Below, piece after piece: positions 18,678 to 46,296 of a DNA stretch of 64,000 bases. Source of the DNA: Climacium dendroides (taxonomy: Eukaryota > Streptophyta > Bryopsida > Hypnales > Climaciaceae); contig OX467082.1 in assembly GCA_950106755.1 (NCBI GenBank), positions 34,782,001-34,846,000 on the forward strand, in the 5' to 3' direction. The position numbers and the translations under genes are program-made. The notes beneath the pieces were generated by a model. It was not told the DNA's origin and did no database searches. It saw nothing but the letters and a program-made list of their open reading frames with translations. The stretch's first letter is position 1. Each line of letters opens with the position of its first letter.

Positions 18678-19838
18678 TCAAGAGGTGCTTGCACTGGAGT
18701 CGGAGTCGTCGTCAAGGTTGACGCACTCCGCCGGTTCCAGATCTCCGAGTGGATCAAATTCCAACATTTGGAACTCATCGAAAGCATCTAGCTCCTCCCT
18801 ATCTAGCAACTCAAATTCTGAATCTACAACCAGAGGTACTAATAATCTACACGAGTTCTCAGTGTCGTCAATGAGTTTGGCCTCTTGTTCTACATGATTT
18901 GGAAGATCTTCACCCCCCGGTTGGTTAGGATTGGGTACCACCCCAGACTGTGAAGCATTTACATCATCCACCACTCCATCCTGACCGTCCTCCGGAGTAT
19001 TCACCTCGCGCTTGTCAAGCTCATCATCTGGACCATTGCCCTGCTTACTGCGTTTCATGTGAAGCTCGGAATCTGGGTACGAATACTGAAGTTTCCGTCT
19101 AGTCTCCCAAAGGGAGTCACCGCCCTCTTCCCTTTCCAGGAAGCCTCGGTAAGCTGTCAACCCAAGTTCTTCAATGCCACGATCTAGCTCTCGTTTCCGC
19201 CGCGTCATGTATTGGGAGCTTAAATCTGACAACCAGGTTTGGTTTGCATGCTCCCGCTCCCGAGCCCTGCTCATCCACTGGAACCCTAATTCACAAATCC
19301 AAGCGTCGTCATGGACCTTGTACTGGCCCTTTCTGGTTCGGCACCGACGCTTCATCCATTGCATCCCGAAATCTGCAATCCAGGAATTATCTAACTCGTT
19401 GTCCAACTCTAATTCGTGTTCTCTGGGTGAGAAATGAGCACTGCAGTCAAACAAAGGACCCCCCCGTGCCTCGTATAGCTTCTTCCGGGTCATGTATTTG
19501 GCACCTAGCTGGGAGATCCAGTCCCCCTCGTTGTCGTCTTCATCATCTTCAAGCGTCTGTTGTTGTTCTGATGGTGTTCTGAAGTTGCCATTTGTGTGGA
19601 ACTTGGGCAGACCGAGGCGACTTTTCCTGGCACTGGGTCTGCTGCTCATGAACTTGTAACCGAGGGTTGATAGTCCCCTGTCGTCTGTGGAAGGAGGTCT
19701 TCTTTTCGCGGTCCATTCTGAACCTAATTTACAAATCTCACCTCCGTCCGCTTTAATTTCCCTCTTCCTCTTCATTGCCCCTGGGGAAATGGGTGATCGA
19801 AATAGAGTTACTTTGCGCTGGAGAGGACGAAAAAACAA
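18678..19838 (-). CDS. Intronless 386-aa protein with W-I-x-x-L-G-x-x-W/Y-M repeats
   Basis: I do not recognise a family. The frame is open for 386 codons, is GC-richer than its surroundings and has no intron. Met22 (19775), which starts MKRKREIK, is an alternative start. A motif recurs: EICKLGSEWTAKRR (34-47), GLSTLGYKFMSSR (55-67), WISQLGAKYMTRKK (107-120), WIADFGMQWMKRR (153-165), WICELGFQWMSR (180-191), WLSDLSSQYMTRRKR (202-216), and a weaker GIEELGLTAY (221-230). Starts are 19-52 residues apart. Each full copy ends in Arg/Lys. The C-terminal third (from about 270) is acidic, with a Ser/Asp-rich end. There is no signal peptide or membrane segment. The early KRKR suggests a nuclear protein, which is inference. 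The repeated helix-like motif could be a short binding module. Confidence 0.8.
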   Translation of the reverse strand: MFFRPLQRKVTLFRSPISPGAMKRKREIKADGGEICKLGSEWTAKRRPPSTDDRGLSTLGYKFMSSRPSARKSRLGLPKFHTNGNFRTPSEQQQTLEDDEDDNEGDWISQLGAKYMTRKKLYEARGGPLFDCSAHFSPREHELELDNELDNSWIADFGMQWMKRRCRTRKGQYKVHDDAWICELGFQWMSRAREREHANQTWLSDLSSQYMTRRKRELDRGIEELGLTAYRGFLEREEGGDSLWETRRKLQYSYPDSELHMKRSKQGNGPDDELDKREVNTPEDGQDGVVDDVNASQSGVVPNPNQPGGEDLPNHVEQEAKLIDDTENSCRLLVPLVVDSEFELLDREELDAFDEFQMLEFDPLGDLEPAECVNLDDDSDSSASTS

Positions 19839-27600: not shown

Positions 27601-27604
27601 AAAG

Positions 27605-27678
27605 TGCCCAATACAGGTCTCGAACCTGTGACCTTCGCGTTATTAGCACGACGCTCTAACCAGCTGAGCTAATTAGGC
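27605..27678 (-). tRNA. trnI-AAU: tRNA-Ile (AAU anticodon)
   Basis: The minus strand folds into a complete 74-base cloverleaf without an intron. The acceptor arm is GCCTAAT paired with ATTGGGC. The D-arm is GCTCAGCTGGTTAGAGC. The anticodon stem TCGTG/CGCGA holds the loop CTAATAA with anticodon AAT (27644-27642). The T-arm is ACAGGTTCGAGACCTGT. The internal A and B promoter boxes of RNA polymerase III are intact. A TTTT terminator follows directly (27603-27600). The inosine-modified AAU reads AUU/AUC/AUA codons for isoleucine in the cytosol. It stands alone between protein genes. Confidence 0.97.
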
Positions 27679-29143: not shown

Positions 29144-31275
29144 ATGGCGTTGAATCCGCAGCTCTATGGGAATGGCACACCGGTGCCGTTTGTTGATGAA
29201 ATGTTTGTACTGCGGCGAGATGCTGTGGATTTCGAAGTGGACAAAGTTGCTGAGTACGTGGATCTGAAATTGTATATCCTTGTTTTTCAAAAAAAAAATA
29301 TTCAAATTTCTTTGTTGAACATGTGTTTGTGGTTAGCATGTTGATACATTTTTTCTGTTCTGAGCGGTTTTGCAATGCTTAACCATACCTAAAGGATTTT
29401 GCCTACGGTTGAGTAGTTTGTTTGTTTGTTTGTCACTTAGTACGAAGAGTAGCGTTCGGGTTGCATTAAATTGAAGTGATTAAAACGGATATGCAGAGCT
29501 CGTGGAAGCAAGTTGTCAGGGAGGGGAACAGCGTACTTGTCCAATTATCGGATTGTTTTCGTCTTAAGCAAGCCTGTGGATAGTATCCAGGCTTTTGATT
29601 TACCTTTGGTAAGTTTGTGTCCTACTTTTCCTGGTTGGAGAATTCTGACGGAGTACTTTTGTTGCTAATTTGCGTTTCATTGATGTGGTTGATAGCAATT
29701 TATTGAAATTCTGCTGACTCAGTCGAGTTTATAATCTTTACTGGAAATTTCACTCTCTCTGCCGTGCAGGTATATGTACATGAAGAGAAATTCAACCAAC
29801 CTATCTTCTTCTGCAACAATCTTGCAGGCAAAGTGCACCCGGTACGTGCATTCTTTAACGATTATCATGTTGGCACAGATTAGCAGATGTAGATGTTCGG
29901 TCGTTTTAACTGCCAAAGGATGATGATTCTATGAAGCTGTAAGTTATCTAAGAGTGTCCGTCTGTACCAGCCAAGTAGCAATTTTAGTTGAATTGAATTA
30001 TTAATGAAGCCCAAGACGTAGTGTCAATTAGCTAATTGGTGCTAACTTCTACTAACCATCTTGCAATGAATTTACGTTCATATTTACCAGTTAACTTAAC
30101 CCTCCTTTTGGGAGAAGTAAGCTGACTGTGCCAATGGTTTGAAGTGTTAAATCCTCCAGCATCAACCAAGTAGTCGCCGATAGCTATCTTGAAGCCCAAC
30201 TCCCCATTGCAAGTGCGGGCACATAATAGCTTGGTTAACTTTCAGCTAGATAAGGGATCTCAGCACACACCCCAGTTAGCTTGTTGGTGCTACTTGGTTG
30301 GTGCGAGTGAGGCCTAAATCACACACTTTAAAGTTTTTTCAAACTGTCCAAATTCTATATTTAGAACACATCCAAAACTCATGGTGGACTTACAGCTTCT
30401 TCATTATATCAGGTGATCCCAGAAGGTGCAAACAGAGCGCTGTATGCCCCTCATTTCTTCAAAATAATGTTCAAGGAGGGTGGAACTGGAACCTTCATTC
30501 CCCTATTCATGAATCTGATAAAGAACATCAGGGCAGCTCAAAGGATGGCGGAAGATTCCCAACCCAGTGCTCCACCTGCTGAGCCCCTGCCTTCTGCGCC
30601 TGCACCAGTTGACGAGATGATGCGACATGCGTAAGTCTGAACCCCAGCAGAAGATGATTGAATTTCACTGTTTGTACAGCAAGGATCAGCCGACTCTATA
30701 CCTCTCTCAATCTTTTGTTGGTTGTTTCTAAGTATAGTCTGAAGCATTTGGTTACCGAGTTCAAAATACTATTAAATGGTCCTCGATACATGAGTTTTAG
30801 CCCCTGGGTTCGTGAACTAAAAACAGGAAGTCCTCCTTTGAAGCTTATAGCCAATTATGTTCATTTCCAGAACATACTACTACCGTTCAAAGACGTGGGA
30901 CATGCTTTCTTCGTTTGAAACTTTCCTTGAAACTTCCTATATGATTCGTTTTCACTCCTACAGACTTTGAAGCGGTCTCTTTTTGCCATTTAGACAGTTA
31001 CGTGTTAAGGTTCTAACGTAGTTTTCAGATGTGATTATAAGCCAAGGCAGATCTTATTTTGCTGTTCGAAGCGGATCTCGTTCTTATTATTAGTGCTTTC
31101 CATTTACTTTTTCCTTCTGAAACCCAAATCATGCTGTCGGTATCTCACACATGATTTCTGCAGGTACATCGACCCATCCGACCCAACAAAGCTCTATTTG
31201 CAGCAGCCTTCCGAGTCACAGCCAACATTGCGGAGGCGCAATTATTCTTCTGTTGGTGAAGAGGGGCAGATGTGA
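29144..31275 (+). CDS. WBP2-like GRAM-domain protein
   Basis: Five exons join in phase: 29144-29253, 29497-29608, 29770-29841, 30413-30630 and 31164-31275, giving 207 residues. It starts MALNPQLYGNGTPVPFVDEM and continues with a GRAM fold: GRGTAYLSNYRIVFVLSKPV, VHEEKFNQPIFFCNNLAGKV and HFFKIMFKEGGTGTFIPLFM. A Pro/Ala-rich stretch follows, then PVDEMMRHAYIDPSDPTKLY, and the end is RRNYSSVGEEGQM. This matches the plant WW-domain-binding-protein-2-like family from end to end in length and order. GRAM domains bind membrane lipids or partner proteins; animal WBP2 is a transcriptional coactivator, while the plant role is not well defined. Introns carry repeats R2 and R3. Confidence 0.92.
29966..30310. 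repeat. Dispersed repeat R2, copy 1 (intron 3 of the GRAM gene)
   Basis: Its two ends are inverted: GTACCAGCCAAGTAGCAA at the left and TTGGTGCTACTTGGTTGGTG at the right. The interior contains TTAGCTAATTGGTGCTAAC. Similar sequence occurs at 42.03-42.52 kb. It has the look of a small inverted-repeat element. Confidence 0.5.
30780..31010. repeat. Dispersed repeat R3, copy 1 (intron 4 of the GRAM gene)
   Basis: The blocks CCTTGAAACTTCCTATATGA and TTTGAAGCGGTCTCTTTTTG recur with few changes at 39.30-39.39 kb, in an intron of the acetyl-CoA synthetase gene. Confidence 0.5.
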
Positions 31276-37823: not shown

Positions 37824-40800
37824 CTATTTGCCACGGAGATTAATGAGTTGATCAACCACAGCTGTATCAGCCAATGTACTGATGTCACCTACTTGGTCCA
37901 GCTCGTTGCTAGCGATCTTCCGCAATATTCTGCGCATGATTTTCCCACTTCTTGTCTTGGGTAGCCCTGGAGCCCAATGGATAACATCTGGCGCGGCAAA
38001 CGCTCCAATCTGCCAATAAGAAGATATGGAAAAGTCAGAATGCGAGAATCAAAGAGCCCAAAGAATTCATTAAAAAAATTTCATTGAAATTGGACTGATT
38101 CAGGGAATTTTAAACATATAGAAAGGTCACCGCCATGATTCATGGTTAGGTCTCACTATGATCACAAGCCTCCTTATGATGCATAAGGAGGCCAACATAT
38201 GGTCATTGTGACAATAGGGAGACCCCGGCATGAATCGTGACAAAGATTCATTTAACGATGATGACGAAAGTTTCTGAAGTACTGTAATTATACTGGAAAT
38301 CATGTTACATAATGCTTTTATCGGATCATCACCTGAGATCGAACAGCGTTGATGAGAGTTCTGCGAAGCTCATTGCTATACTCCACTTCTTCCAGAAGCG
38401 TGACGAAAGCATAAATTCCTTGGCCTTTCACCTGTATCAAAGTCCAGTAACAAATGCACCACCCGTCGTGAGTTTTGAGCGCATCACAAAAGAGAAAAAG
38501 AGCAACCTTGTCCAACGAAGATGGCACTCAATGTGTCACTATAAACCAGTGTGTGCAGTTTCATTCACCTCGTGGTCAAATCCCACAACTGCAGCTTCAG
38601 CGCATTGGGGATGCGAAACTAGAGCCGATTCAACCTCCGCAGTGCCTATGCGGTGCCCACTGTGCCCTCACAGGCAAGGTGAAGATCAGAATATTATCCA
38701 TCTACATATGCATTTAAGGCAATGTACAAAACAGAAAGAACTTAATGCGTAGTAACATGATGCATATTAAGTTTTTGTAGCTGAGGGAATGTATGCAAAA
38801 AAAAAGCTGAAATTTAACAGTAACTAAGAAGAAACATTCAAACTGCCGAGCAAGCGTCACTGACCTAACATTGATGACATCGTCAACTCGTCCAGTCAAC
38901 CAGTAGTAGCCATCTTTATCCCTGCCCAAATAGTTCTCACCGATATTAGAACTCACTTCCTAAGGGTCTGTTTGGTTGGAAATAATTAGTTTCTAGTATA
39001 TAATCTTCAAATATTGGACGGTTTAAGAACACAACGTACACAGACAGATAATATTCTGACCTTCACCTTTGTCCATTACAAAATTGCAAACCAGTTCATT
39101 GATGATCTGTTTCAGGAGCTAGATACCTACCACATACAATAGAACCTCATCTATAAGGAAAGAGGTTAACTCCTAGGTGACAAAAATAAAAATAAAAAAT
39201 CCAACTTTGGAAGCTAATAATTGATTATAGTAACTTTCAAAACATATCTCTATCGTTTAAAAACATAGGCAGAGATTTCTTCTTTCAATTGATTAATCTT
39301 GATAACTTCCTTGAAGCTTCTTATATGATGTATTTCAACTCTTAAAGATATGGAAGCGGCCACTTTTGCCCATTTGAGCAGTTTACGAACACAATGGAAG
39401 CTGACCTGCGGCATCCATCACCACTGAAATAAAATCCTTTATATGGAGCAAAATATGTGGTTTCATATCGATCATGGTCTCCTTGTAGAGTTCTCATCAT
39501 GCCAGGCCATGCGGCCTTGATGCACAAGTAGCCGCTACATTCTCCAGACTGTTCTTGTGCATTTTCGTCTACTACAGCAGGCTGCAGATATAGTGAAACT
39601 CATGCAAAGGAGTCAGCAAGAGTAAATGAAATGATCTACATGTATTGCAACCATCTGTTCATATTTCTGGAGTTCATCGGATTTGACTTGATACCCGTCA
39701 CGGAATTCACGTCCTAAAGAACTTCATTTCTCTACTCATAAACAGAGATTTCGTTACATACTTAAGATTCAAATATTAAGACAGCAGAAGATGGTATAAT
39801 CGCACCTGAACACCAAAGAAAGGTAAGGTAGCAGATCCAGGTTTAAGGCCCCAAGCCCCGGGAAGTGGGGTTATCTGAACGTGGCAAATATTCATGGTGT
39901 CAGCACAACAGATACTCCCGTAACATTAACCGGTAACAAATAAAAAGTTTTCTCTCAGCCACTAAATTGAAATAAAAAAAAAGTAGAAACCAACCCCTGC
40001 CGCCACACGCAGACCAAAAAAGTAATCTAGAAAATCTAACCGTGTTTAACCTTGCCAATTGCAATGCCATTTGAGGCTGTTTCTAACATGAACCCTGCCT
40101 ATTGTTCCACGGCTAGGTTTTCTAGAATACCTTTGAGGTGAGTTTTCAGCTACTATTGCATGGACCAAGAGAAGAAAAAACAAATAGATTAAAAGGTGCA
40201 AGATGGTTGCCTGCCAAAATAACATACCATAAACCCTCCTGTCTCCGTTTGCCACCATGTATCAGCTATAGGACAACGTTTATCGCCAACTACTTCGTAG
40301 TACCACTTCCACGCACTTGGATTTATCGGTTCTCCCACACTCCCAAGCACCCGTAGTGATTTACGAGAGTGTCGTTTAACAGGCTGCCACAAACACAAGG
40401 CAACACAAGGCAGTTGTGTATCAGAATACTATAATGACCACATCAGATGTATGTCACAATTCTACATTGATCGCGACGGATTTGGCTCCTATACCCAAAT
40501 ATCTCTTCACAGCTCTATACAATTTCCAAAAGACACACTCCTACATATGTTCAAATTCTTAAAGTAAAGTAAATATTATCCTCTACCTTAAATTAGTGAT
40601 TAGCTAGAATTCTTACTTCTCGATTGATTGCCATAAGCAAAACTAGTCTGAGACTGTCGTAAAGGTTAACTTTCTATACCAGACATCTTGAAGCGCATCT
40701 AAAGAATTGGTTAATCATGCAACTCAGCAGCCTGACAATACCTCGTCACCCGACCGCATCAACGAACGAATTGCAGTTGGGGCAGTGTAGAAGATGGTCA

Positions 40801-43800
40801 CATTATACTTGTCCACTATTTCCCAACAGCGCCCTGCATCTGGATAGTTGGGGACCTGCCCACACAGAAAAATGCATAGATAACATTCTCGTAAGCACTA
40901 ACACCATTTCTGTAAAGTCAAAAAACAAGGTTTCACTTTATCATTTTCCGGAAACTTTGAGAAATAAAAGACAAAGGTAACAATACAGACTCGAACACAT
41001 CCGAACACTAGGGTATGTACGAAGAACCATGAAGGGAAAAAAAAGAGATTTTTAAAGTAACTACACCCTCAAAAAAGTTCTTCATAAATGATAGGTAACC
41101 TCGTTAATAATCACATTTTATGTTGAGTGACACTTCAAAAGAGATTCTTTCATAATAAAAAATAATTTCGAATTTGGCATTGATAGCAATGCCGAAACGA
41201 CAGAACATTTACCCCTTCAAAAACAACCATGGTAGCACCATTGAGTAAAGGGCCATAAGTTAGGTAGCTGTGACCAGTAATCCATCCACAGTCTGCAGTA
41301 CACCTGCGCAAACATCCATAAGCTTGCAGTATGTGACTTTCTCGTCTTGACACAAAGCTTCAAATCAATACCGCAAGATATGCCCCATAGGATATGAAAA
41401 ACATAAACGCACCAATAGACGTCGTCATCGTGGTAATTGAACGCATGCTTAAAGGTTGTGGCAGCGTATACCATGTAACCTCCCGTTGTATGTAGCACGC
41501 CCTGCCAAACATCTTAAATGTCAAGTAATCTATTTAGCATTACATCAAGGACAAAGAATACCAGAATCTGCAATTAAACACTTATTCGTTTCATCATGTG
41601 ATTACTAAGCCCTCGTCCAACACCCAACAGAGGCTAAGCTGCTAATGTGAAGTACAATACCTTGGGCTTTCCTGTGCTTCCACTGGTGTATAACAGAAAC
41701 AGTGTATCCTCTGCATCGACCCATTCCACTTCACATTCTTTTGCTTGTGATAGTACGACATCCTACAAGAGGAATCACAATCTACTAACTTAAAAAAAGT
41801 CAAGTTGACAGCTCAAAAAGTTCTAGCGATGAAACAGTTTGGTCCCGTCAACACCATCCTATTAGTGCGAGTGACACTAATTCACCGAAGTCATATTATT
41901 TTAAGCTACTGCAATAGTACTGTAGTGCACTAATTTCCACCCCAATTTTTTTTTGTAATGACATTAATTTTGCAAGTGATACTTACTTTGCGCACTCACA
42001 AATAGGATAAAATCAGGATTTTGCAAGGTAACTAATACCGTCAACTTAGCTAACTGCTGCTACTTGGTTGGTACATGCAGATTTAACACTTCCAACCATT
42101 GGAATAGGCACAGTTACTTTACTTGTCCAAAATCAGGGAGTTAACTAAACTGATTAGAAAAGGAATGAACAAAATATTGCAAGTTACACTGAAACCACCG
42201 TCAACTGTTGCCAACAGTATTCACAAGAGGCCACACTAGTAGTTATTGTCAAAAATACTGGGATTCATTCCATTTCCAGTTGATGCAAAATGTTTTTAAC
42301 ATGAAGAAAATAACTATTCAAATGAATGAAATTTTGTTCAAATGGATGAGTTTACCCACTGCATTGATGCACGTACAAGATATGGTGATTCATTGTAGTT
42401 ATTGGAAGTTAGTAACAAATGTCTAAAATGAGAAATTGGGCGGTGCCGGCATTTAGCAACTAATTCCAGTTGGCTAATTGGCGTTACTTGGTTTGTGCGA
42501 ACAAGGGCTAAAATATGATTAAGCAAAAATAGGAAAGAAAAGAAGCACAGTCTAACAAAATAACGGGTAGAAACCAACATTTTCCATCAGGGTAAGACAT
42601 TAGTCAAGGGAGAAGGTAAATCAAGCATATATCAACCTGCCACCATATGTCACGACCTTCTTTCCATGCGGTTTCTTCTCTCTTTATCGCCAAATCGTTA
42701 TCAAACGTCAAACACACACCTGCAGAAAACATCAAGTGCACATAAAGCACAAGGGAAATTTCACCAAAGTTTATAATGAATTATTCAAAATTTGTGGCCT
42801 AATCATAATTAATCCCTTGATGAAATAACCTTGTGATCTTCCTTGAAGTTCCTCACCTACAGTATGGCCATTCTTTGATGCTCGTATCAACGCATCATCA
42901 ACGATTTCCTTGAGTTTGATAACCTTGGCGCCACGTTTCACTGCACTGCTAGTCAAGATAACATTTGGCTTGCAATCAAGTATGCGCTGATACAATGACT
43001 CCGCCGAGAATCCACCGAAGACGACCTGCACAGAAATACCATATTAGGAGCCATCTTCGAAAACCTCTTCATAGACAAAAGTCCTAAGAAATAGCCTTCC
43101 GAAAAGCAAGGAGACTCGTGACTAATTTCAACTACACCCCCCCAAAATGGGTAAACTTGAGATCATGGACGTCATGGCAACAAGTCAAGACGTGTACTCA
43201 CAGAATGGATAGCTCCAATTCGTGCACAGGCAAGCATGGCGATCGGCAACTCCGCTAGCATTGGCATGTAAATTGCCACTGCATCGCCTTTCTTAACACC
43301 TTGACTACGCAAGTAGTTTGCAAGCTGCAGTCAAATACAAGAACTTTATCAGCGAGACCTACATTTCAAAGAAATTGACAATAATAGATGATCTTATAAA
43401 TAATAGTGCGTCACCTCTTTTGACCCTCAATACGAATTTATAGAGCCAATGACATTGAAGTCACCAATAGAAATCAACAAGGGTCGACTGTAATTTACCA
43501 ACGCTTGAGATGCCAAAAGAATTTTTGGACCTAAATTTCGATTTGGAGTTGCAAGAGTGGGACTAAATCCCCAATTTGGGGAAGCTAACTCAATGTCAAT
43601 TCATTGCATGTAACTATGAGCTCTTGTCATCCCAAAATAGCACAAAGTTGGACAAAAATTTAGATACAATCTAGAAACATGGCATGTATGTGAAGTGGAG
43701 GGGCAACCCACTATCACTTATACACACAACTCTAGCAGTCACACTTCATTTTCTTGGCATGGAAGGAAATCGATGCCCAAGCATACAGACAAGTTCAGAA

Positions 43801-46296
43801 AGTGCCACTCCAATGACATGCAAAAAAACCTGGCAGTAAGATAAGACCATTGTGTAGAATCTGTATTGAACAGAAAACATACAAGATCCACACCTGGCAA
43901 ACGCGATCGAGAACATCGTTGTAAGTCAGTGTGGCATCCACGCCAACATCATTCCCTTCCCAAAAGAAAGCAACCTTGTCACCGAGGCCTGCCTCCACAT
44001 GCCTGTCCAGGGCATTGTAACAGATGTTGGTTTGTCCACCCTTGAACCACTGCCACGCATCAAAACATCAGTGAAAAGAGAAATAGAACATCCTCTCATG
44101 ATCCGAAAGTGTCACGTTGATCAATGTTATTTGCTAAGGCAAGCATAGCTAAGGTAAGCCATTCTACTTGTGCCACCAATATATTTGAGCCTAACTGTGC
44201 CACTATTTAGTGGTAGAGCACATTTGAAAATGTGCACTACTGCAACATAGTGGCACAAATAGGCTCAACTGAATTGGTGGCACAAATAAGATGGCTTACC
44301 TTTATACCACCGGGGGCTGGTTGAGAAACGGACCTCAACAGCCACTCGTCCTTTGCGAACATCAATGTTTTCAGAGTGCAATTTTCCATCCTTGACGGGC
44401 CATTTCTTCTTCCAGAAAAACGATGACGCAATATCACCCCAGAATCCATCAGGATCCTCCACGGATCGCTGGTACATCTCGTCATACTGCACAACATTCC
44501 ATCCCAAGCATCTCTGTCATCCACTGAAATCCTAGAGGGGAAAATTTTCAAAACTGACTCCATATATAACATAATTCAAATAACATACGGCTCAGAAAAG
44601 CTTTCAAAGAAGCTCCACCGCACAGCAAAGGAAGTCATTCAACCTTCGACTTATTAAAAGTCGTTGATAATCATTATGTCATGAATGAAGAATTTCGTCA
44701 TTGGTAAGCCCTACAGAACCAGAAGGCCCAAATTGGGCATCACGGTTATTTTTTAGCAGTCTTGAGTAGTTCATCTAGGGACCTTTCTACGGTTCAACTT
44801 GATTCGTTTATTAATCAACGCGTGAAATGATCTTCACCAATTCTAGTAATATAAAATTTAAACTCATCCGAATTATATTTTCCAATCACAGTGATCATTT
44901 TTAAATCAGTCGATCCTTGTTCTTTAAGGGGTTCCCCAAACCTGGTAGAATAAACTTCGAGTCTGATTGATATCAGCTACTACTATAAGTATCAATCTGG
45001 CAATAATAAGGTAGAGGATACTAAAAGCCATTAGGAACACGATCCGATGTCTTATACTGGCCCCTGTTTCTAACGGCAACACTTGGTTGGCCTTCAAGTA
45101 ACAAGTCTGGTGTAATCATAACTCGAATAAATTGGTCAATGACCACAGATTTTTGAATGGAAAAGGCATTGTCTAATGTCCCTTCAATAGTGTCTTACAA
45201 ACTCCCAATTTTGTATAATTGCATAAGAATTTCGTACATAGTGATAAAAGTTTTGTCTCAGCAGATTAGGCTCTTATATCCAAGACGATTCTCCAATGAG
45301 CTCTATATTGATCTCCAAATGGAAGTGCACTTCTACATATGAATTAAGATGCTTAAATTGACATAAATAGTATTCACTGCCTTAATTACAGAAATGTTTT
45401 GTTACACCATAACCTCAATGGAGCCCATTCCTGTAGCGGTGGCAACCATGCAAGAGCATAATTATATCTCGTAGTCTTGTTCTGGTGACCGCCTTTTAAG
45501 ACTCTCGATTGAGCATGATTAAATAGGACCCAATAGTATTATCCAGTAACCTGAAAGTAGAAAGCAGAGCCTCGTTGTATAAGCTAACGTCCCTCTTAGC
45601 TCCGTTGCTTAATATGCTATTTCTCATAACGAGGCTCAACTTTCATGCCACAGAATTCATATCAGATCAACTGAAGCCTCAAAAAATTACACTTGAACTA
45701 AGAGAGATTCATATTTGTATCAATGAACTAAGAGAGATTCATATTTGTATCAATGAACTAAGAGAGATTCATATTTGTATCAATGGTGTCATCAAGAAGC
45801 GCTACTCGTTAAAATTCAACGGTCAAGCCAGTATTCCACCAATTCAAGCACAGAGATGCCAAAACATTTCTTTGCGAACAATACAAATCGAATGCTCAAA
45901 GCAGATTCAAATTAATAAATCTTAAGCAAACTGCGTAAAATAATTGGCATCCGCACTAACCTGCGCCCGAGACGACACCAACGCCCGCGCCCGAAACGCC
46001 TCGCTCGCCTCCACGATCTCCTCCTCAGGCTCCACACTCACCACATTAGCATCCCCGTTCGCGGCTTCAATTGCGGAATTCGCCCGCATCGAGCTCGCGA
46101 CTCCCATTCTGCGACGCCCATTCTGCGACGCCATAAGCTTAATCAAACCCGTCCTCTCCCGCCCCGGAGAACCAAGCCTCCGGAAGCTCACCTGCGAAAC
46201 GGCAATCCAAGCACGCGCGGGCTCCGTCCAATTGGAGAGCGCAGGAACGGTGCGCGCGGGCCTGGTGTGCAAGGCAATCGGCATGGTCTCGAACAT
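37824..46296 (-). CDS. ACS: Acetyl-CoA synthetase, 17 exons
   Basis: It makes acetyl-CoA from acetate, ATP and CoA through an acetyl-AMP intermediate. Exons on the minus strand: 46296-45961, 44486-44334, 44049-43894, 43324-43202, 43025-42857, 42719-42637, 41762-41661, 41501-41413, 41303-41213, 40855-40742, 40383-40228, 39874-39806, 39581-39406, 38921-38865, 38659-38569, 38431-38333 and 38009-37824. All phases match, giving 749 residues and a stop. Motifs: [10 protein letters not shown] (365-374, ATP loop), [11 protein letters not shown] (512-522), FSGDG (599-603), [11 protein letters not shown] and RSGKIMRR with the catalytic, acetylation-controlled lysine at about 711. The first exon adds about 100 residues rich in Arg, Ala and Ser, which fits a plastid transit peptide (inference). 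Every donor begins GT, but exon 2 has a weak one (GTCCGT). Introns hold several repeats. Confidence 0.96.
38132..38241. repeat. Imperfect foldback in intron 16 of the synthetase gene
   Basis: The centre is a perfect hairpin with 11-base arms (GCCTCCTTATG / CATAAGGAGGC, 38168-38192). Outer blocks CCATGATTCATG, GGTCTC and the matching GAGACC, CATGAATCGTG continue the fold at lower identity. It resembles a small foldback element. Confidence 0.6.
39180..39395. repeat. Dispersed repeat R3, copy 2 (synthetase intron 13)
   Basis: CCTTGAAGCTTCTTATATGA and ATGGAAGCGGCCACTTTTG match the copy at 30.8-31.0 kb in the same order and spacing. Confidence 0.5.
40440..40610 (-). repeat. Dispersed repeat R1, partial copy 4 (synthetase intron 10)
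   Basis: It shares the blocks GGCTCCTATACCCAAATATC, CTCTATACAATTTCCAAAAG and CTACATATGTTCAAATT with the copies at 20.7 and 45.3 kb. The characteristic end is missing, so it is truncated. Confidence 0.5.
42030..42515. repeat. Dispersed repeat R2, copy 2 (synthetase intron 6)
   Basis: It contains TTAGCTAACTGCTGCTACTT followed by GGTTGGTA near 42050, and GGCTAATTGGCGTTACTTGG near 42472. Both match the copy at 30.0-30.3 kb. Boundaries are approximate. Confidence 0.45.
44151..44302. mobile_element. About 150-bp foldback MITE in synthetase intron 2
   Basis: The ends AAGGTAAGCCAT and ATGGCTTACCTT are exact inverted repeats. The similarity continues inward through ACTTGTGCCACCAAT / ATTGGTGGCACAAAT, TTGAGCC / GGCTCAA and GTGCCACTAT / ATAGTGGCAC, so almost the whole sequence folds on itself. 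No coding content is present. The target duplication is uncertain; TA-rich flanks would fit a Stowaway-like MITE. The right end lies 32 bases inside the intron from exon 2. Confidence 0.85.
45005..45430 (-). repeat. Dispersed repeat R1, copy 5 (synthetase intron 1)
   Basis: On the minus strand it ends GATCGTGTTCCTAATGGCTT then TTAGTATCCTCTACCTT. Its interior blocks align with the copy at 20.4-20.9 kb throughout. Confidence 0.65.
45695..45784. repeat. 30-bp perfect tandem repeat, three copies
   Basis: GAACTAAGAGAGATTCATAT followed by TTGTATCAAT repeats exactly three times in intron 1 of the synthetase gene. Perfect identity implies recent expansion and likely length polymorphism. Confidence 0.97.

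Follow-up and report, generated by a model that had tools for sequence, protein, structure and literature searches.

The window analysed here, 64,000 nucleotides of the moss Climacium dendroides (contig OX467082.1), contains on its minus strand an open reading frame at 18678-19838 that encodes a repeat-bearing protein. A preliminary description had reported this frame as intronless; it is indeed present, with the corrections that it lies on the minus strand and that its ATG is at 19775, and "intronless" holds for the coding sequence, a single open frame colinear with its relatives. The upper end of the frame, 19838, is an in-frame TTG. Related proteins place the initiation codon at the ATG at 19775 rather than at 19838, since full-length non-Sphagnum relatives open with MKRKR and the 92% identical P0001 likewise has 365 residues and opens with MKRKRE. 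The features of the gene are as follows, with copies numbered after the Sphagnum array.

18678..19775, minus strand: coding sequence, 365 residues plus stop, no intron; start placed from P0001-P0005 and P0007
19758..19775, minus strand: N-terminal MKRKRE, a basic cluster resembling a nuclear localisation signal, with putative nuclear localisation; MKRKR opens all ten non-Sphagnum relatives with a full N-terminus (P0001-P0005, P0007-P0011)
19698..19739, minus strand: motif copy 1, EICKLGSEWTAKRR, residues 13-26; 22.4 bits, above all 500 shuffles
19635..19676, minus strand: motif copy 2, GLSTLGYKFMSSRP, residues 34-47; 25.2 bits
19479..19520, minus strand: motif copy 3, WISQLGAKYMTRKK, residues 86-99; 35.6 bits; six-frame scan
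19341..19382, minus strand: motif copy 5, WIADFGMQWMKRRC, residues 132-145; 38.2 bits; six-frame scan
19260..19301, minus strand: motif copy 6, WICELGFQWMSRAR, residues 159-172; 37.8 bits
19194..19235, minus strand: motif copy 7, WLSDLSSQYMTRRK, residues 181-194; 34.9 bits; six-frame scan
19137..19178, minus strand: degenerate copy 8, GIEELGLTAYRGFL, residues 200-213; read from alignments, without a profile call here, called in P0009 and Sphagnum P0012
19083..19109, minus strand: C-terminal half of a probable copy 9, WETRRKLQY, residues 223-231; aligned with LVAELGSQWETRRK, which is called in P0010 and P0011, without a call here
18681..19085, minus strand: acidic tail, residues 231-365, net charge -29
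18711..18785, minus strand: conserved C-terminal block, AFDEFQMLEFDPLGDLEPAECVNLD, residues 331-355; activation-domain-like by composition only

Antisense to the gene runs a putative 159-codon stop-to-stop frame (19103-19582, plus strand), seen as an open frame alone. Elsewhere in the window, pieces of an acetyl-CoA synthetase lie at 37827-44067 on the minus strand and probably belong to one multi-exon gene:

43798-44067, minus strand: ACAS_N, E 3.1e-5, below cut-off
40192-40428, minus strand: AMP-binding, E 1.3e-10, above cut-off
37827-38048, minus strand: AMP-binding_C, E 4.7e-4, below cut-off

Furthermore, the window holds a tRNA-Ile gene with anticodon AAT (27604-27678, minus strand), a weak GRAM-domain-like stretch (29480-29665, plus strand; E 0.019, below cut-off) and an open stretch (45527-45925, plus strand) whose translation contains ELREIHICIN three times, which suggests a short tandem repeat in the DNA.

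The frame is intact in the 412.6 Mb assembly of 123 contigs. A search of this genome with the window protein matched the motif gene itself as the sole locus, and Sphagnum P0012 and a 15-unit motif array as queries (E up to 10) returned the motif gene alone, in 2 and 3 matching pieces. These three protein queries revealed no paralogues in the genome, with the limit that the first pass scored just 3, 1 and 3 candidates and weak copies could escape. As judged by protein search, the gene is thus single-copy.

To call motif copies, we employed a profile of six copies from nine proteins (P0001, P0006, P0008, P0010 and P0014-P0016 unused), leaving out the group under scoring. Built without the window protein and P0001, this profile called six copies in the window protein, which scored 22.4 to 38.2 bits and each exceeded every one of 500 shuffles, the best of which reached 13.1 bits. 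The strict pattern W[ILV]xx[LFIVM][GS]xx[WY][MT] occurs four times, whereas in 10,000 shuffles it averages 0.0001 occurrences and never exceeds 1. The called copies start 21, 52, 46, 27 and 22 residues apart, and a weak seventh copy starts 19 residues beyond the last. The preliminary description, which had seen six clear copies and a weaker one at spacings of 19-52 residues ahead of an acidic C-terminal tail, was accurate on these points, the weaker copy being read from the alignment only.

That description had also named a lack of homologues and of transcription as grounds against it. Three protein searches yielded 15 different relatives besides the window protein and, from candidate pools of 2833, 5612 and 231, kept 12, 14 and 13 (E up to 10); as they require shared five-residue words and similar length, a liverwort or vascular-plant relative could be missed. 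The four relatives with an assigned organism are all from mosses: Ceratodon purpureus (KC19_9G038900, 62% identical), Physcomitrium patens (P0007, 50% identical, one relative cluster in the searches), Sphagnum compactum (P0012, 35% identical over 64% of the query) and Sphagnum troendelagicum (P0014). Restriction to mosses thus holds for these four and is presumed for the other 11. Relatives at 92, 62 and 50% identity span 97-99% of the length. A tree was computed for 13 of these 16 proteins, leaving out the fragments P0006, P0015 and P0016; it has a midpoint root only and carries a program warning that long branches meet. In it, the window protein and P0001 form a starred pair, the Ceratodon protein and three others a starred group, and both together with Physcomitrium a starred group of seven. 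P0009 and a group of P0008/P0010/P0011 fall outside these seven, and the two Sphagnum proteins stand apart on a long branch.

Copy number, whose comparison between species the preliminary description had suggested, varies across these proteins. Figures in brackets give how many of the called copies scored above all 500 shuffles. Six (6) copies were called in the window protein, in each of P0001-P0005 and in Physcomitrium P0007; 9 (8) in P0008, which contains a duplicated two-unit block; 8 (7) in P0009; 8 (5) in P0010; 8 (6) in P0011; 8 (8) in Sphagnum compactum P0012; 7 (6) in Sphagnum troendelagicum P0014; and, among the fragments, 4 (4) in P0006, 6 (6) in P0015 and 4 (4) in P0016. The Sphagnum compactum units read WICDLGSEWMSKRR, GISEVGLQWMSSRP, WISDMGSAWMQRRK, SIAELGSELMQRKR, WVADVGYRWMSRQR, WICELGFQWMSRRK, WLSDLSSLYMSRKK and WISELGADWMSRKK, and a probable ninth, below profile calling, ends in RRKLEF. 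Compared with these units, the window protein retains 1, 2, 3, 5, 6 and 7; its unit 8 is decayed, of unit 9 the end is present, and the unit 4 pattern is missing. Since Sphagnum compactum has eight called copies, the array is older than the split of Sphagnum from the other named mosses. Moreover, each of the six copies is more similar to the same copy of Sphagnum P0012 (identity 0.49-0.76) than to its other copies (0.31-0.45), so that, as far as sequence can tell, the copies had already become distinct before the Sphagnum lineage separated. In 29 of 48 comparisons the same copy was the unique best match in Sphagnum; copy identity has therefore been kept, though it is imperfectly readable from 14 residues. 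The Sphagnum and Sphagnum-like proteins open with MKKRSR, MTSRSR or MTRRSR. They occur in two forms, P0014, P0015 and P0016 being 57-62% alike to P0012 and having weaker copies, which may reflect a second gene or, alternatively, rapid divergence among species.

We then examined constraint along the motif in 54 units (six copies from each of nine of the 13 aligned proteins). Position 2 is I, L or V, position 5 is L, F, M, V, I or Y, and position 9 is aromatic in all 54, while position 6 carries a small residue (G, S or A) in 53. Methionine occupies position 10 in 45 units and D or E position 4 in 38; R or K is found at positions 12, 13 and 14 in 41, 45 and 35 units, respectively. Information peaks at positions 2, 6 and 10 (3.17, 3.29 and 3.31 bits), with 2.03 to 2.73 bits at the basic end. 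A small residue beside large hydrophobic ones would be expected of close helix packing, whether on a partner or on a second helix; a loose contact with a membrane or nucleic acid would not need it. In the same number of aligned proteins (9 of 13; P0001, P0006, P0008 and P0010 dropped), mean column conservation is 0.78 over the motif (104 positions, including decayed copies 8 and 9), against 0.62 in the linkers (126 positions to residue 230) and 0.48 in the tail (135 positions). The earlier notion of a motif conserved among diverged linkers is borne out by these values, and the interpretation attached to it in part. Within the tail, residues 331-355 reach 0.66-0.73 per ten residues, compared with 0.22-0.59 over residues 241-330; this block is mostly absent from Sphagnum.

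The distances between copies were compared in 12 proteins (P0006, P0008, P0015 and P0016 not counted). Copies 1 and 2 are 21-22 residues apart in ten of them and 25 and 32 in the two Sphagnum ones, copies 3 and 5 lie 45-46 residues apart in 11 (50 in P0014), and copies 6 and 7 are separated by 22 residues in nine of 11 and by 24 and 25 in the remaining two. Copies 7 and 8 are 19-20 residues apart in 4/4 proteins, copies 8 and 9 20 residues in 3/3. The gaps between copies 2 and 3 (52-75 residues) and copies 5 and 6 (27-39) vary across the 12 proteins. The array thus looks like units of about 20-23 residues arranged in two or three blocks with two loose gaps between them. Several near-constant intervals imply that some fixed geometry is possible, as free beads on a string would not need them.

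AlphaFold2 modelling of the window protein from 13 aligned sequences gave a mean pLDDT of 45.1, a pTM of 0.17 and no confident packing. Helices cover the six called copies (residues 12-24, 37-44, 83-103, 131-146, 154-178 and 182-203), with further ones at 117-127, 207-217 and 222-227, and the tail is unstructured. With Sphagnum P0012 as first of 14 sequences (pLDDT 46.9, pTM 0.20), a helix overlaps all eight called copies. Helix confidence is mostly at pLDDT 50-70, both models are poor and the alignments are shallow; the copies are therefore predicted to be helical at low confidence. Structure prediction, which the preliminary description had proposed, hence supplied a low-confidence helix over 6/6 called copies and no global fold. 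By our own reasoning on a helical wheel, W1, L5, W9 and I2 would share one face, with G6 and M10 near its edge. We rejected a strong amphipathic or membrane helix, as the hydrophobic moment is ordinary and none of 21 copies beat 95% of its own shuffles. The 20-residue stretches around the copies are near neutral (net -3 to +5; 14 of 21 at 0 to +2), owing to acidic residues upstream and at position 4. A hydrophobicity scan detected no signal-peptide-like stretch in the first 45 residues of any of the 14 proteins with an apparent true start (fragments P0006 and P0016 aside), the highest 12-residue Kyte-Doolittle mean being 1.32 in Sphagnum-like P0015 and 0.27 in the window protein. Likewise, none of the 16 proteins has a membrane-like stretch, no 19-residue stretch exceeding 0.64.

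Family libraries gave no assignment, consistent with the earlier statement that no known family fits: Pfam and NCBIfam matches stay below cut-offs and the PDB match is chance-like. No Pfam-A family reached its curated cut-off in the window protein or 13 of the 15 relatives (P0015 and P0016 left out), the best match being zf-MYST in P0008 (19.5 bits, E 7.7e-4, cut-off 28.8). We discarded Dbr1_C, BLI1, Spore_YhaL, zf-MYST, DUF4178 and NYN_YacP, all of them weak matches that stay short of their curated thresholds. Of these, Spore_YhaL gives weak matches in 8 of the 13 members (best E 0.0072); among the matches listed they lie mostly over motif copies, and we read this recurrence as likeness of a short pattern. 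NCBIfam, searched with P0013 and P0012 only, gave at best 12.8 bits against a cut-off of 493, and profile searches of the PDB gave no match for profile A1 and a best E of 1.9 for motif profile A4. A likeness to N-hydroxyarylamine O-acetyltransferase, seen as a single PDB match of the window protein (E 0.013), was judged to be chance, because the same stretch appears in PDB and NCBIfam and the NCBIfam score is far under the cut-off. Among literature titles and abstract beginnings there was nothing on the motif gene, and the Ceratodon locus tag appeared in no paper. The gene is real, old and, within what was searched, undescribed.

Alpha-alpha hub domains (Sin3 PAH, RCD1 RST, NCBD and TAFH) bind helical short-linear-motif ligands, and these ligands resemble the motif protein in being disordered, in a spaced hydrophobic short motif that likely becomes helical on binding, and in an acidic context (PMC7948954). 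Their phi-phi-x-x-phi pattern (PMC7948954) is contained in the moss W-I-x-x-L; the strict RST, PAH2 type I and II and TAF4-TAFH patterns, however, are absent from the window protein. We tested the RST, PAH2 type II, TAF4-TAFH and one NCBD pattern (PMC7948954), together with EAR, 1-5-10 and BH3 patterns, on 7 of the 16 proteins, and the PAH2 type I, ETO-TAFH and second NCBD patterns on all 16. Phi-phi-x-x-phi occurs seven times in the window protein against 5.40 in shuffles (134/500), no excess, and eight times in Sphagnum P0012 against 4.18 (16/500), an excess; P0012 alone shows an excess of the first NCBD pattern (16/500). The second NCBD pattern is rarer in the window protein than in shuffles (3 vs 8.66), and its four ETO-TAFH matches (1.77 in shuffles; 52/500) all lie in the tail, outside the motif copies. 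The RST ligand (D/E)X(1,2)(Y/F)X(1,4)(D/E)L is absent from six of seven proteins and occurs once in P0009 (148/500), and the relaxed form FDPLGDL in the tail is at chance level (268/500). Sin3 PAH2 type II ligands, A(A/V)X-phi-phi-XX-phi, EAR repressor motifs, LxLxL, and the BH3 pattern L-x-x-x-[GAS]-D-x-phi are absent from all seven proteins, as is the PAH2 type I ligand phi-zz-phi-phi-x-AA-xx-phi (z, any residue) from all 16. Hub ligands usually have one or two motif copies, compared with six or more in the moss protein. The spacing of a BH3-type helix, hydrophobic-x-x-hydrophobic-Gly-x-x-aromatic, occurs in five copies of the window protein, a count that none of 500 shuffles reaches in any of the seven proteins. 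This excess restates the moss motif, and the Asp after the small residue is absent in all seven; the likeness is one of shape only, and Bcl-2 proteins are not known in plants. The protein is of a known kind, that of repeated short motifs, and the motif itself matches no class tested.

What such a protein might do can be approached from its parts. Together with the lack of a known domain, the MKRKR start, the basic clusters and a C-terminal block that is both acidic and hydrophobic suggest a regulator acting in the nucleus. We tentatively favour, at somewhat less than an even chance, a probably nuclear and largely disordered adaptor that uses repeated helical docking motifs, avidity and an acidic effector end; helix formation on binding, the nuclear site, docking and the effector role are what we infer. 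The N-terminal two thirds would present six short helical motifs in the window protein and eight or nine in some relatives, each preceded by acidic residues and ending in basic ones. Every motif would dock through W1, I2, L5, W9 and M10 into a groove of the partner, the small position 6 allowing close packing, and several copies would bind by avidity or gather several partner molecules. In lineages having one, the acidic C-terminal block, activation-domain-like by composition, may form the effector end. This reading draws on copy-wise conservation, the small position 6, two gaps as variable as flexible linkers would allow, helix over called copies without confident packing, the KRKR start with no secretory signal, and the conserved block in a variable tail. 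Against it stand the ordinary hydrophobic moment, the pLDDT of mostly 50-70, helices also outside called copies, the near-constant distances, the C-terminal block largely missing in Sphagnum and the misfit of the plant docking-motif classes tested; the glycine within the helix also disfavours a free helix. A more specific proposal, which we regard as doubtful, is that W-[IL]-x-x-[LF]-[GS]-x-x-[WY]-M-x-[RK]-[RK] constitutes a new helical docking class of the moss lineage, confined to one protein that gathers many copies of one nuclear receptor with partly fixed geometry, as a moss-specific hub of lineage-variable valency.

Other readings have to be weighed against the docking adaptor. The R and K residues at positions 12-14 and the KRKR N-terminus would suit basic helices that bind nucleic acid or chromatin, their ends contacting phosphate or the nucleosome acidic patch while the aromatics pack and the acidic tail regulates; yet the copy stretches are near neutral, with acids upstream and at position 4, and information is highest at positions 2, 6 and 10 and not at the basic end, which leaves this reading rather unlikely. 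Similarly improbable is that the copies recognise one another, acidic start against basic end and with the small residue at the interface, whether as a regular helical array whose units measure some 20-23 residues or through self-association or condensate formation of the chains. Such packing would account for the near-constant spacing of copies 1-2, 3-5, 6-7 and 7-8, for the 45-46 residues from copy 3 to copy 5, which equal two units and in Sphagnum P0012 have copy 4 between them, and for the near-invariant small residue, the acidic residues before each copy and basic ones after, and the many copies per chain. However, the AlphaFold2 single-chain models, built on shallow alignments, lack confident packing, and two gaps vary widely.

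An array of 1-5-10 calmodulin-binding helices (W1, L5, M10 and the basic end), a prediction from sequence, seems very unlikely. Copies 3, 5, 6 and 7 have the anchor spacing and basic end, and the 1-5-10 count of the window protein is nine against a shuffle mean of 4.0 (6/500), with at most 48 of 500 shuffles reaching the count in six of seven proteins (11 to 48 in the other five). This excess, however, is a consequence of the motif and adds no independent evidence, it is missing in P0010 (220/500), and the moss copies differ in their low 20-mer net charge (down to -2 in the window protein and -3 in Physcomitrium), conserved acid at position 4 and conserved glycine. An acid at position 4 and a glycine at position 6 are atypical of calmodulin-binding helices. 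Of the two roles guessed in the preliminary description, repeated binding modules fit best, whereas a precursor that frees peptides by cleavage at the basic ends can practically be dismissed: basic residues do follow most copies, but a signal-like N-terminus is lacking in 14/14 proteins with an apparent true start, an NLS-like start standing there instead, and constraint is strongest inside the motif. A chance open frame or pseudogene is just as hard to credit, given an intact frame and relatives collinear over nearly their whole length down to 50% identity.

Taken together, the proposed docking adaptor would follow a known design, many copies of one short docking motif, with a moss motif that lies outside the family libraries and motif classes tested and an array whose individual copies have persisted from before the divergence of Sphagnum from the other named mosses. 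Gene targeting is routine in Physcomitrium patens, and as the searches showed one relative cluster in this moss, the role of the array and of its copy number is directly testable there. If a single nuclear partner were found, the protein would offer a clean case for the evolution of docking-motif valency and spacing.
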